A stretch of 64,000 bases of DNA from Rhizophagus irregularis (Eukaryota; Glomeromycota; Glomeromycetes; Glomerales; Glomeraceae), in contig NC_089450.1 in NCBI RefSeq assembly GCF_026210795.1, positions 682,001 to 746,000 on the forward strand, given 5' to 3'. The stretch's first letter is position 1; the number at the start of each line of letters is the position of its first letter. The position numbers and the translations under genes were made by a program. The notes below the pieces were generated by a model. It did no database searches. It had not been told where the DNA came from and was given only the letters and a program-made list of their open reading frames with translations. Shown here piece after piece: positions 610-41,518 of this stretch.

Positions 610-634
610 GTCGTCTCTTCGGAGCGACACTTAT

Positions 635-666
<32 letters not shown>

Positions 667-726
667 GGCCCCTGCACAAGGATGACACGTTATCTTGAGT
701 GGATAGCAGCTAAGGCTGCAATATTT
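610..726 (+). ncRNA. U6 spliceosomal snRNA, copy 1
   Basis: U6 is the catalytic snRNA of the major spliceosome. The gene opens with a 5' stem-loop (gtcg-t-ctc, ttcg loop, gag-cgac). The invariant U6 core follows: aattggaacgatacagagaa (with the ACAGAGA box), the AGC region in gattagcatggcc, then gcacaaggatgacacg. Instead of the usual short 3' end, an internal stem-loop (gttatc/gatagc) is followed by an extra hairpin (gcagc-taag-gctgc) and a T-run that would terminate Pol III. The transcribed part is identical to the copy at 38262-38380. An open frame on the opposite strand is a by-product. Confidence 0.95.
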
Positions 727-765
727 TTTTTGAAAAAATTTAAAAAACTTGAATTTTATTAATTT

Positions 766-955: not shown

Positions 956-3900
956 GTTATAAAAAAAAACCGGTATTTCATTTTAACTATTAAAAAGTAA
1001 CATCAATAATTCTTTATTAGTTTATTGAATCTATTTTTTAGGCAATCACCAAAAGTAAGGACTGCATTTAAAAATTTATTGTCGTCATTAAAAAAAAAAA
1101 AATTCGTTCCTTGTTGATTTTATTTAGTCAAATTAATTCAAATTAATGAAAAGTTAAAAAACTGACACTTTTTTAGTAAGAGTATAAAGAAAGCATCATT
1201 TTAACCAAAATTGGAGTAATTATTGCGGATCCTTAGATTGAAAAGAGATTAAGGAGATATGGCTAATTAAAATCAACCATCATCCCCTTAAATGGATGGA
1301 AAAAAATTTCGCCGAATTACGCCGAAACGTTTAACCGATCGGGTTAATATCCTCATAGAGTGAGGATTTTCTTTTCGGATCTTTTTTTTATTTTAAACCA
1401 GTTATTTTAATTAAAGTTTTTAAGATTAAAGGGTTATAAACTTTTTTGATTGAAAATTATAAAAATTTCATATAATCCATATAATCAATATAATTAATTA
1501 ATATAATCAATATAATCATTGTATGATCTTCCTTATAATAATAACAAGTGTACTTTTTAAAAAATCATACTGTATTCTAAAATAAGGTTTCAACACCAAA
1601 ATGATAACGTTATTGTAATTTTCGGTAGTTGTCGGAACTATCCTAATTCAGTAAATTATTTGTAACAAAAGAACTCGCGTCTTTTTAATATTAATGGTAA
1701 TCGAACTATCCCAATATAAGTAAGTTGATATAACATATGATTCCCAAATTTATCTTGGCAAACTAAAGTTCTTTATTGCATTTAATGGCGTCACTCAAGT
1801 ATGATTTTCAAATATATATACATATATATATATGTGTGTGGGAAATATGCAAAAAATTGTGATGGGCGTGCGCAAGTATCGCAGTATCGCATTAGCCTAC
1901 CATTTACCCTATTTACCAATTACTTATACAACCTGATGAAAGGAATTCTCTGTGCGAACTTTTTTTTTTGCAAAGCGCACATGTCCGCACTGGCGTCGTA
2001 AAAGTGACGGTTAATTCGGATAATATAATGAGATTTATCTAATGTTTTTGCGTAATGCGTTAAATATCTTTTTATATTAATTTATTAAATTTTATGTATG
2101 AAATACTTGAATGTTTTTTGGTTTTTTTTTTAAAGACCGGAAAAAAGATCAAGAATTACGCGAAATTTCTCGCGTATTACAACATTATTATGCAGAGAAA
2201 AAAATGATTGCGTGTTTTTTTAACTGCGAGTTTATTATATGACACGAATTTTACTTAAAATTGATGATTTGTTCGGTCGTTTCACTTAGTTTATAAGTAA
2301 TACTTGTACGTTTTTTTAAAAAATATATATTAAAAAAAAAAATAGAGGGACGAATATTTATTTGTTAAATTAAATTTTTTGTACTTTTGTTTCATGAAAC
2401 ACAATTCATATAGAATTGATAATTAACTAATTAAGGCATGAATGTGAATTTCATTAATGTATTACTCATAGAATCATAGTAAAAGTCAATTATCACGATC
2501 AGAATAATTATAATTCAAAATTCAAATGCAAGGAAAATGAAACTTATTTAATAATTACAATCTTCATTTATTTTAAATTAAGTTTGTTTTACCAAGGAAA
2601 AACAAAAGCCAGCCATAAAAAAAAAAAATAAAATAAATAATAAATAAACAAATTCAAAAATAAGAAATTTACAAAAAAAAAAATTATTATTAGAATAATA
2701 TTTTTTTTTTCTAGAGAATGAAATCATTTAAGTGGTATTCAATAGAAAGGTTGCATCTGAAACAGTTATTATTTGTAACCTAACTTATCATAGCTTTTAG
2801 TAATGCAATTTGGGAAAGTCATTATTTCCTTATTATATGCTGTAATCCAATAAAAATCTTTTGTTATGTTGTTACGTTGCATTTTTGTCTTATTCCAATG
2901 AGTAATGCAAGAACTAAATTAGTTCAATCCCGCAATGATTGAAAAAAAAAAAAAGATCTAAATTTGTGATCAAGGTTTCACTACATGGATCATTGTTTTA
3001 ATATAGTCGAAAAAAAAATTATATATATTTTCTTTTGTATTAATCCTTTTATGGTTAAATGATATTATTTATCGGAAAATCGAACTTCCATAGGATAAAA
3101 TTACGGTGTTTACAAAAAAAAAGAAAAAATGTCAATCACGCGAAACGAAAAAAAAAAAGAAGAAAGAAAAAAAAAAAATCAATTCAGTTTGCCATATTAT
3201 TTTGCCATGTATGCAATGCGGGAATACTTTAATTTTCTTGTGATCGTGAAGTTTTTAAAATCTTTCGCAGATCTGTTTATAAAAATTTCTTAGATATGTT
3301 TCTTATATATCTTAGATATCTTTTTTAAAATTTTTTTATTCTTTATTTACTTTAAATAAAAAAAAAACTAGAAATTTTTCTTTAAAAAAAAATATACAAA
3401 TTTATCATGTAATTTCATTGTTTTTAATGATTTTTTTTTTTGTTGTTAAAAGGAAAATCTTAAAATGAGTTTGGAATTCATATTCTAACGTAAAAAAATA
3501 AGAATTCTAAGGGAAATAATATAATAATAATATAATTAAAAATATATACATTCATTGCTTAAGCCAGCCCTGAAATTTCTAAGAATTCAGGTAATGATAA
3601 AGTAATAATAGTAATAAATAAAAAAGAAAAAAGGAAATAGATGAATATAAGGTAATATAGGTAAGAACCGGGAAAAAAATTTTACATAGAAAAAGACTTA
3701 AATAAATACATGATTTTTTTTTTAAGAAAAAAAAATCGAATTTCATACGATTATGTTTTATTTTTACAAGGAAGGAGAGTTGTTAAAACCCTTAAAAAAA
3801 CTTATATATTTTTGTGATTGAATCAGGATCGGATTATGTCCTGATCTCAAAACTTCTCATTTCATGTAGATAAAATGTCTTTAATAGGGATAGAAGATTA

Positions 3901-36102: not shown

Positions 36103-37392
36103 TTAATCATCATCATCGGAATCATCTTCACAAGGTTGATAATATGAAGGATATACATTTGTTACTTTATCTCAATAGGCCAATACCAAAATCCATTAGA
36201 TAACTTATGAAAATCGGCAGTGATACGCATTCCGGGTATAGCATAAATTCCTAAATCTGAATTTACACAGATAAAAAAAGGTTCCGCAGTAGACACATCG
36301 AATTCACGTAACTTTATTTTCTTGAGAAATTCATTAGAATTTGAAGGGTTTCATCTGCGGAAGCCTCCGATATATCCTTTTGAAAAGGTTCAACTCTAAT
36401 AATTTCACATTGTCAAAGAGGTTCTAGAATCTTCTTTAACTCGGGTCAACTCTTCGACTGCATTAGCGCCAAATAACTCTCTAATGAGTTGTTTTCCTTC
36501 CCCTTGATATTCCAATCATTGACGCTACCATTTCTTCTCCATTCCAAGGATCATCAAGCATACCATATAATTCTCCTCCGAATAATAAAGAACACGCCTT
36601 GTTGAGTTTTCCTGGCGCATTCTGTGCGAACGCTTTGCAATTTGGTAATTCTTCTTTTGCTTTGTGAGCGATTTGCAAAGCCATTTGCATATCTTCTTCA
36701 TACTCCGGACATACCTTATGGTTATGTAAATAATTTAAAAATGATATCACAACCTGAGGTCCTTCGCGAAATTGGTCCATTTGAACATAACCAGATTTAA
36801 AAAGCTAGACAAGTAGATGCGAACAATGTACGTGAAGTTTACTTCCATGTCATCTGCTTCGTAGTCGATATAATCTGTTACGCGGCGTGCAGCAATTTCT
36901 TCTGCGTCCGCGTCTGCGTTATCGAGTCCATCTTGACCTAAGAAAGACTTAGGACCAGTGCTAATTCCTCCGAAACGTAGATAAGAATTGAAAACCTGAT
37001 TCCGAGTGGAATTGAATTTACGGTTCTTTTTATATTTCTAAACAGCTATTTCCACGCGATGTGTTAGTGATTTCGATGGATCATAGAGTCTATTCTCATC
37101 ATCTTCAATTGGTCCACTATCATGAAAATCTATATTAGCTGATTTCTTCTTCTTCTTCTTCTTCTGCTGAGGAATTGCTACGTCAACGGTCTCACTGGTC
37201 GAAGCGGTAGGATTATTTGCATCATTTTTTGAATTCGTATCGTCTGAATTTTTATCTTCCGTATCTTCTTCTATTGTTACTTTGCGATCCACAGTTTGTC
37301 AGTTGAAGGGGATCATTTGTGCCATTAACCAAAGTTGTATCACTTTTTGTTATCGTTTAAATTTTTATTTCCGGATTCTCGTCTTCCTTCAT
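36103..37392 (-). pseudogene. Arb1-like (Argonaute siRNA chaperone complex subunit) pseudogene
   Basis: Arb1 is a subunit of the ARC complex of fission yeast, which holds Argonaute with double-stranded siRNA. The minus strand reads, in order, an acidic N-terminus, a lysine run (QQKKKKKKKSANIDFHD), the family hallmark FNSYLRFGGISTGPKSFLGQ, then YIVRIYLSSF, GPQVVISFLNYLHNHKVCPE, LIRELFGANAVEELTRVKED, IKLREFDVSTAEPF, GIYAIPGMRITADFH, GFWYWPIEIKVTNVYPSYYQ and a DDSDDDD end. The order and content match the family, but the frame is broken: a TAG near 37038, frameshifts near 36790, 36500, 36415, 36330, 36275 and 36165, and probably two more before 37292. Not all breaks are in homopolymers and one is a substitution, so sequencing error alone is unlikely. 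The start near 37392 is a guess. Confidence 0.8.
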
Positions 37393-38143: not shown

Positions 38144-38240
38144 TTAACCAATCATGTTTCGCTGAACATCATGACGTCATGTGAGGTTGAAACTTGAAAC
38201 CCATAATTTTTATGAACTCAATTTTTTAGTGTTATATAAA
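38144..38240 (+). promoter_or_regulatory. U6 promoter, copy 2
   Basis: The TATA box (tatataaa, 38233-38240) is 29 bases before the U6 start and the block cccataatttttatgaactc (38200-38219) is 62 bases before it, both as in copy 1. The CCAAT-like block (ttaaccaatcat) starts at 38144. A perfect CRE-like palindrome (atgacgtcat, 38171-38180) lies between; copy 1 has only a partial match (gcgtcat). Confidence 0.7.
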
Positions 38241-38261
38241 CCAAATGACAACTATAAGATT

Positions 38262-38286
38262 GTCGTCTCTTCGGAGCGACACTTAT

Positions 38287-38318
<32 letters not shown>

Positions 38319-38380
38319 GGCCCCTGCACAAGGATGACACGTTATCTTGAGTGGATAGCAGCTAAGGCTGCAATATTTTT
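38262..38380 (+). ncRNA. U6 spliceosomal snRNA, copy 2
   Basis: The transcribed sequence is identical to the copy at 610-726, including the 5' stem-loop, the acagaga box, the internal stem-loop and the extra gcagc-taag-gctgc hairpin. The terminating T-run is longer here (about 20). The T-run ends only ~90 bases before the start codon of the PPR gene on the same strand. Confidence 0.95.
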
Positions 38381-38479: not shown

Positions 38480-41400
38480 ATGTTATCTTCTAAATTAATG
38501 AATTTTAATAAAATTAATTTATTGCCTTTGCGTAATATAATTTTTTATGAAACGCAGCCAAAATATTCACTCTATTCCATATTTCTTCGACAACTGAGTA
38601 GTAATATAAATAAAAAGTAAACACTTTTGCCAACTTCAATATTCTTATGTTCAGCATTAGCTTATTATTGAAAAAAAAAAATTCTCTTTTATGCTACAGA
38701 TTAAAACTCCATGAAAAAATTCTACAATCAGAAAAAGATATAAAGAAGTTGGAACGGAAAATTTCAGCATTTGATAAGCAAGTTATAAATTTAGAAGTAT
38801 GAATAATTAATTAAATTATTTTATTCAGTAATTTCATTTTCTTACTTAAACTTGATTTATTAGTCAGATAAACAACAGTCATTATCAGAAGATTTTCTTT
38901 CACAAATTCATAAAGCAATTTCTGCACCACCTGAAATTCCTCGATTTCGACATAATCATGATCTTAAATTACCAATCGCAGATGAGAAAAGGCTTGATTC
39001 CCCCCAGGAACTATCTTTACCTACTGTTAGTGATTTACAAGCATCAAAACGTGAACAAATACGTCTATTAACCCAAATGAAAAAAGAAAATTTAAAGTCT
39101 ATAGAACAGTTCAATAATTGGTTATATGCTTGTGTAAGTTAAATACAAGGGTATATTATTTTTAAATCTTGTAGATTTTTCTAAATAATAGCTGTTTTTA
39201 CAGGCATTAACGGAACGAGTTGATGAAGCATCAGATATACTTTTTTTGATGGAGGTTAGAACAAAACAAAATGCGGTATTTCTTTAATTCGCGCATTTAT
39301 ATTCTCAACAATTTTATCTCAGAAAGCAGGTGTTATTCCTAACGCCGTTACATATGATCATTTAATAAATCTCTATGCTTCTGTGGGAGAATTGCAAAAA
39401 GCAATAGGAGCGTTTGATTTAATTGAAGCTGGTAAATATTCTCCTAATTATATCTTAATTGTAATTTATATCACGTTATCATTATATTAATATTATCTCA
39501 TTATGTTATATTTAGCTGGACTTAAGCCAACGGTCCATAGTTTTACAAATTTGATTAAAGCATATAATAAACATAATCGAGTTGAGGATGCATTTAACGT
39601 ATACTTGGATATGAAAATTTATGGGTTAATACCGACTCAAGTTAGTAACTATTATCAGAATATACATAGCCTTTTGAATATTCATTAAACTTGTCTCTTC
39701 TTTAACATAGCCTATATTTACAACCCTTATTAAAGGATGCATTGATAATGGAGATATAGTACGTGCATGGATAACATTTGATCATATGCGATTGGAAGTA
39801 TGTCAACCCGATGAGGTTACATTTAGTTTGATGATTCATGCATGTGCAAAAGTGAGTATAGATTATAACCCTTATTATAAAAAATATATATATAATATTA
39901 TTGATGCGGTTATTTAATATACTAGGGTGGAAATACCGAAAGAGCCTTTGATTTGTATCAAGAAATGAAAGAAAAAGGATTATGCCCAACTGATGTTACA
40001 TTTAATTCTTTGATTCACGCTTGTGCAATGAGAAAAGATATCCTTTAATATATTATCATTTAAGAATTTATATTATATATATTCTTAATTAAAATTCTTA
40101 CATTATTATAAAGAAGCGTTTAAGTTATTACAAGAAATGAGAGAATATGGATATCAACCTGATATCACTACATGTAATTCATTAATGTTTGCATGTTCAA
40201 AGAACGGAGATCTACAAATGGCCAGGAGTTTATTAATAACAATGATGCAAAGGTAACATTTATGTTATCTTTCAAATGTTTTCATTACATTTAAATGATG
40301 TTAAAATAATTATTTATTTATTTGATTTATTTATTAGGGTAAAAACTGATCCATTATTAACTCCAGATGAGTTAACATTTACAAATTTATTCTGGACATA
40401 TTCTACTTATAAAGAACCCATGAATTATATAAATAGGAGTCAAAATGGAAGGTTGTCGGAAAGTAAACAATTAAAAGTAGCAGATTTGTCGTCTGAAACT
40501 GATAATAAGATAGGATTATCTCATGAGAATCACAAAGTTTTATTAAGAAATGAAGATACAGAGACAGAAAATAATCAAGAATTACGATCAGAACTAACAA
40601 TATCAGAGGAGACACTATCAGAAGACACAAATTCAAGAAACCACGACTTGTTAATAGTAGGGTCAGATACTTATCCGTTTTTTAACAATGTGCCCGTTAC
40701 TGTTTCACAAACTGTTAAAGAAGCAGAGATGATTTTCAATCATATAATCACGTCACAAACTAACGCGAAAATAACATCATCCTTTCCTATAAATTTATCA
40801 CCAAAATTAGTTATTTCATATTTAAACATTTTAGTTAAAAAGTCTAAATATAATAAAGTATTCGACTTCTATAAAAATTTTATACCAAAATATAATATCC
40901 AATTAAATGGGTGGATCTTTTTAAACGGATTAACAGTATGTTATAAACATAAAAGAGTTGAAGAATCTTGGAGTATATGGCGAGATTGGGAAAATTGGCG
41001 AAAGGAACAAAGTAGAGAGATTAAAAAAATTTATGATGATGAGCATGATAGGAAGAATTCATTTAAAAAAATTGGAATGACTGAAAAAATGGAATACGAA
41101 ATTTATAAATTAATGATTAAGATATTAGCTAGGTAAGTGATTTCCAAATTGGGCTTTTAATTGTTCATTTTATTGAAAGTATTTATTTATTTACAGGTGT
41201 AATGAAATACATAGTGCTATTAGATTGTTACAAAATTTATCAAATTTACAAAAACCTGATATACAAGATTTTACATTATTATTACAAAAATGCGTGGAAA
41301 ATGATGAAATGGCATATAGAAAAGTATTTAAATTATGTTATAATTCAGGAAATGACAATGTATTACAATATAGAAATTCATTAGCGAAAAAATGGAAAGG

Positions 41401-41518
41401 ACGAGGAATTAAATTGCCGCCAAAGAATAAATATGATGAGAAAGAAAAAGGATTGAATCACAATAAATGGAGGAGTGGGAATTATGGAAAGAAAAGAGAA
41501 TCTGTCCAAAATAAATAA
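38480..41518 (+). CDS. Mitochondrial-type pentatricopeptide repeat (PPR) protein, 11 exons
   Basis: The exons are 38480-38616, 38700-38796, 38864-39133, 39204-39254, 39323-39431, 39516-39640, 39711-39851, 39926-40037, 40102-40252, 40338-41132 and 41197-41518; every junction keeps frame, giving 769 residues. The N-terminus is basic, Ser/Leu-rich and acid-poor, ending FLRQLSSNINKK, as in a mitochondrial presequence. From residue ~193 come at least five consecutive repeats of 35-36 residues, for example HSFTNLIKAYNKHNRVEDAF, FTTLIKGCIDNGDIVRAW and VTFSLMIHACAKGGNTERAF. A long acidic linker, further degenerate helices (LVISYLNILVKKSKYNKVFD) and a basic C-terminus (KKWKGRGIKLPPKNK) follow. PPR proteins bind organelle RNA, so a role in mitochondrial RNA processing or translation is likely; the target is unknown. 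Intron 8 is AT-AC. Confidence 0.9.
40038..40101 (+). other. Putative U12-type (minor spliceosome) AT-AC intron
   Basis: Exon 8 ends ATG AGA AAA G, and the next bases are ATATCCTTT, the exact nine-base consensus for AT-AC U12-type 5' splice sites. In-frame reading through it meets TAA within four codons, and there is no usable GT donor here. The 64-base intron ends ATTCTTAATTAAAATTCTTAC: ttcttaat resembles the U12 branch site (tccttaac/t), with its second A 13 bases from the terminal AC. Joining G to ATTATTATAAAGAAGCG restores the PPR frame with a 36-residue repeat. The nearby AG (after ATAAAG) also keeps frame but gives a 32-residue repeat. Confidence 0.82.

Follow-up and report, generated by a model that had tools for sequence, protein, structure and literature searches.

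The locus and its gene

The window analysed here, a stretch of 64,000 nucleotides of the Rhizophagus irregularis genome, carries a gene of 11 exons whose spliced translation of 769 residues is open throughout. Its product is a pentatricopeptide repeat (PPR) protein with tandem 35-residue repeats: it matches the Pfam families PPR_2 (PF13041) at 164.1 bits over seven stretches and PPR (PF01535) at 132.1 bits, and it is matched by solved PPR proteins in the PDB, the best of them at 297.4 bits. Nine of the ten introns of the gene have GT-AG termini, the remaining one being intron 8. The coordinates of the gene, of this intron and of the other features described below are collected in Table 1. A protein search of the same genome returned 31 match rows, four of which correspond to the gene's own exons; no close copy of the PPR region was found by it, no relative exceeding 37% identity and the best ones sitting in long open frames. 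The 31 rows offered no paralog with which the position of intron 8 could be compared. Two U6 snRNA genes also lie in the window, 37.7 kb from each other and with the same sequence over 119 bases. The second of them ends about 100 bases 5' of the PPR start codon, on the same strand.

Table 1 Features of the window and of related loci elsewhere in the genome. Positions are those of the window, except where a locus (L) is named.
Feature	Position	Strand	Remarks
PPR gene	38480..41518	+	11 exons
Exons 1-6 of PPR gene	38480-38616, 38700-38796, 38864-39133, 39204-39254, 39323-39431, 39516-39640	+	
Exons 7-11 of PPR gene	39711-39851, 39926-40037, 40102-40252, 40338-41132, 41197-41518	+	
AT-AC intron (intron 8 of 10)	40038..40101	+	64 nt, phase 1
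U12-type 5' splice site	40038..40046	+	ATATCCTTT
Candidate U12-type branch site	40081..40089	+	ATTCTTAAT, best 9-mer
3' splice site	40100..40101	+	AC, TTAC context
Sister AT-AC intron, METTL14-like gene (MT-A70)	L020, about 1500-1575		Pfam match across junction
Sister AT-AC intron, importin-9-like gene (importin-beta N-terminal)	L010, about 1500-1570		Pfam match across junction
Sister AT-AC intron, ubiquitin-conjugating enzyme gene	L016, about 1500-1569		Pfam match across junction
Sister AT-AC intron, GAA1 gene	L008, about 1500-1586		Pfam match across junction
Sister AT-AC intron, ChAPs gene	L013, about 1500-1577		reverse complement; Pfam match across junction
U6 snRNA gene	610-728		
U6 snRNA gene	38262-38380	+	
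Shared upstream element	549-728 and 38201-38380; L001 and L002, about 1440-1500		
snoRNA snR77 match	L047, 373-458	-	
Repeat copies with promoter stretch (18 read)	L029-L034, L036, L037, L039, L041, L045, L046, L049-L051, L053, L056, L058		promoter stretch near 1500 of the oriented locus

Intron 8

Intron 8 reads ATATCCTTT...TTCTTAC. Its 5' splice site agrees with the U12 consensus RTATCCTTT at all nine positions, compared with two to seven positions in the remaining nine introns of the gene. Read through without splicing, it encodes D-I-L followed by a stop codon; excised, it leaves VTFNSLIHACAMRKDYYKEAFKLLQEMREYGYQPD, which is an exact 35-residue PPR unit, as counted by eye. Intron 8 thereby combines AT-AC termini, which together with GT-AG are those taken as U12-type, with a frame that is restored on removal. 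The original prediction had set its borders at 40038 and 40101, with an AC end and a 5' site matching at nine of nine positions, and all of these proved exact. It had further described the other introns of an 11-exon gene as GT-AG, a stop within four codons on read-through and the recovery of the frame within the series of PPR repeats, and these points agree with the gene as we find it (nine of nine remaining introns, D-I-L-stop, and one exact unit rebuilt in an open frame of 769 residues). The middle of the intron folds as a weak hairpin with a z-score of -1.47, 14 of 200 shuffled sequences folding equally well.

Minor-spliceosome components and sister introns in the genome

The genome searched amounts to 146.7 Mb in 32 contigs, and snRNA matches were judged by the Rfam gathering scores. 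Matches above these scores were obtained for U12 (68.9 bits), U11 (71.9 and 55.5 bits), U6atac (79.9 bits) and U4atac (55.0 bits, with a margin of 2 bits over the cut-off of 53). The segment GTCCTTATCGAGGGG of U4atac is the perfect complement of CCCCTCGATAAGGAC of U6atac over 15 bp, or over 16 with one wobble. The 5' site of intron 8 is complementary to the 5' end of U11, with a duplex energy of -9.1 kcal/mol, and to the AAAGGA in U6atac, with -6.4 kcal/mol. In addition, a domain of the SNRNP25 (U11/U12-25K) type, PF18036, is matched in two adjacent pieces of 50.4 and 30.4 bits. PDCD7 (PF16021) gave no match in the genome; the control genomes are likewise without a match, and this search is hence uninformative. 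A check for the four snRNAs and for minor-spliceosome proteins had been proposed together with the original prediction, and each part of it returned matches: R. irregularis is predicted to possess U11, U12, U4atac and U6atac as well as a minor-spliceosome protein domain.

Further AT-AC introns were sought across the genome with a strict pattern that uses the consensus branch site and that intron 8 itself would fail. The pattern occurs in 15 places, as against four for its reversed form. Ten of these 15 places were submitted to Pfam as spliced peptides, and five have a match that extends across the junction (Table 1). The peptide of the MT-A70 gene aligns to METTL14 across its junction, and that of the importin gene aligns to importin-9. 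The other five of the ten submitted peptides matched no Pfam family; one of these (L019) was also compared with the PDB, again with no match. The GT-AG version of the pattern, again with the strict branch site, occurs in nine places versus three for the reversed control; these matches served only for a tally of branch-site bases.

The candidate branch site and its predicted pairing with U12

The candidate branch site of intron 8, ATTCTTAAT, has its putative branch A at position 40088, 13 nt before the last base of the intron. It agrees with the consensus TTCCTTAAC at six of nine positions, a T replacing the consensus C. A U12-like branch site 13 nt upstream of the intron end had been predicted, and the candidate fits this position; its strength is lower than had been implied. 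The predicted pairing of ATTCTTAAT with the local U12 amounts to -6.4 kcal/mol. The duplex energy was rejected as support for this branch site: within the final 32 nt of intron 8, U12 pairs best, at -7.0 kcal/mol, with the 3'-terminal TTCTTAC instead. Nor does it discriminate, as the same part of the PPR gene's nine U2-type introns gives -3.8 to -10.2 kcal/mol, with four of the nine about equal or better (-7.1, -7.8 and -10.2, and -6.1 just short).

The sole U12 match found (L001, 1514-1529) has GGAUAA, within AUGAGUAAGGAUAAUA, where the Rfam consensus has GGAAAA, a U replacing the consensus A in the stretch that pairs with the branch site. Intron 8 has A at the first branch-site position, matching this changed U. 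That minor-intron branch sites of Glomeromycota co-evolved with an altered U12 is unlikely, however, and the idea was dropped as an explanation: the 24 strict AT-AC and GT-AG candidates, which include some chance matches, have T at this position in 10 cases, A in nine, G in four and C in one, a tally that gives no preference for A and no genome-wide shift.

Interpretation and alternative readings

That intron 8 of this PPR gene belongs to the U12-type AT-AC class has, in our estimate, a probability of roughly 0.94; that it is spliced in RNA, where it branches and whether this affects the protein are what we infer from the DNA. This reading accounts best for the locus because the 5' site is perfect and removal of the intron repairs an exact 35-residue PPR unit, and because the genome contains matches to the four snRNAs and to the protein domain, together with sister AT-AC introns of like form in conserved genes. 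The original prediction, which placed an intron of this type in a PPR gene of a fungus, is supported by the 5' site, the repair of the repeat and the snRNAs. Following the order of snRNP events established for the minor spliceosome, U11 would pair with ATATCCTTT and U12 with the branch site; U6atac would then leave U4atac by unwinding and take the place of U11 at the 5' site, and the minor spliceosome would excise positions 40038-40101, giving an unbroken PPR array.

A conventional intron of U2 type might instead span the site, the AT-AC signals being coincidental. Splice choices were enumerated with donors from 39990 to 40099 and acceptors up to 40199, and 16 of them keep the frame without a stop: two GT-AG, two GC-AG and 12 AT-AC, including 40038-40101. 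The two GT-AG introns, 40023-40116 and 39995-40124, contradict the earlier claim that a GT donor is lacking, yet each damages a repeat, and indeed all four GT-AG and GC-AG choices lose part of one. Excision of 40023-40116 deletes 10 PPR residues and lowers the PPR_2 score from 77.5 to 69.9 bits and that of PPR_1 from 42.6 to 35.2; excision of 39995-40124 deletes 22 residues, and the two scores fall to 51.3 and 16.7 bits. Of the 16 choices, this scoring covered the two GT-AG ones and 40038-40101. The AT-AC choice, by comparison, yields one exact 35-residue unit. Coincidence finds some ground in that the genome is AT-rich and ATATCCTTT alone occurs six times on the two strands of the window, where 2.2 copies are expected from 100 first-order Markov simulations. 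The combination of ATATCCTT, TTCTTAAY and AC at intron-like spacing is seen once, against an expectation of 0.02 (two hits in 100 simulations), and a looser form is seen twice, the second time at 36372, against 0.24; these combined patterns were composed with intron 8 already in view, and the chance figures are indicative only. In view of the damage to the repeats, we regard a GT-AG intron at this site as very unlikely.

Rare AT-AC introns of U2 type exist and are removed by the major spliceosome. Intron 8 would resemble them in that its branch site has only six of nine consensus positions and its pairing with U12 is unremarkable; its 5' site is nevertheless the exact U12 consensus, to which both U11 and U6atac of this genome are complementary, and removal by the major spliceosome seems to us even less probable than a spanning GT-AG intron. 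The lowest probability of all we assign to an error of sequencing or assembly, or a decaying gene, that mimics an interruption of an ordinary exon: an AT-rich insert of 64 nt with a U12 5' site is unlike a base-call error, and the frame of 769 residues is otherwise open across the 11 exons.

The U12-type intron proposed here would join a set that is already described. Larue and Roy (2023; PMC10639083) give 205 predicted minor introns for R. irregularis, or 0.272% of 75,377, and report in this species all four minor snRNAs and orthologs of ZMAT5, RNPC3, SNRNP35 and SNRNP25. According to the same text the phases of the minor introns follow the order 1 > 2 > 0. Intron 8 shares with these introns, as they are presented there, the 5' signal, the AT-AC class and the commonest phase, 1, and differs from them in a branch site that is weaker than the consensus. 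It may already be among the 205. The earlier description of intron 8 as an informative, rare example from an early-diverging fungus is outdated, and since minor introns of R. irregularis were already predicted in this number in 2023, we consider it an added example and not a new fact. The AT-AC class is also shared, among early-diverging fungi, with U12 introns that Bartschat and Samuelsson (2010; PMC2846911) describe from Rhizopus oryzae and Phycomyces blakesleeanus; the reported number of minor introns is about four in the former and about 20 in the latter, in figures quoted through PMC10639083. A literature search, which did not extend to supplementary tables, found no paper that joins pentatricopeptide, minor intron and fungus. 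Intron 8 would show, in one well-formed case from a single gene, how a glomeromycote fungus uses the minor spliceosome, and it bears on annotation, where gene finders limited to GT-AG introns would break the PPR repeat at this point.

A shared putative snRNA promoter element and LTR retrotransposons

Both U6 genes of the window, as well as the U12 and U6atac genes, are preceded by the element CCATAATTTTT(A)TGAA and then a TATA-like box; weaker versions were seen by eye upstream of U11 and U4atac. In sequence, this arrangement resembles a PSE-TATA snRNA promoter. A scan of the genome for the element gave 33 rows, as against two for the reversed pattern, and these correspond to 26 distinct places after overlaps were merged by eye. 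Four of the 26 places are the two U6 genes, the U12 gene and the U6atac gene. Rfam, applied to 24 of the 26, added to these snRNA genes one match, a snoRNA beside a U6 gene: it is snR77, on the minus strand near the U6 gene at 610, with 51.7 bits for a cut-off of 50, and it was not reported when the window itself was scanned. Two places, on contigs C15 and C27, look unrelated.

The other 20 places belong to one repeat family; 18 of these copies were read (Table 1), and two on contig C29 were judged by their matched letters only. Six pairs of repeats were compared, and they have 1.2 to 1.4 kb in common at 99.8-100% identity. The spacing within a pair is 8.8-10.1 kb in five cases and 22.5 kb in one (on contig C26). 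The one interval that was read (L059) encodes gag, protease, reverse transcriptase-RNase H and integrase domains in a Ty3-like order. A literature search on Rhizophagus snRNA promoters yielded nothing on promoter-bearing LTRs among the matches listed. On the simplest reading of these sequences, the LTR of a family of Ty3-like LTR retrotransposons has apparently acquired an snRNA promoter of the U6 type. The copy at L029 shares its promoter stretch with the U6 gene at 610 (L047) at 98.6% identity over 70 bases, and the copy at L032 shares its own with the U6 gene at 38262 at 85% identity over 62 bases; in L032, the promoter stretch is flanked by a direct duplication of 24 bases.
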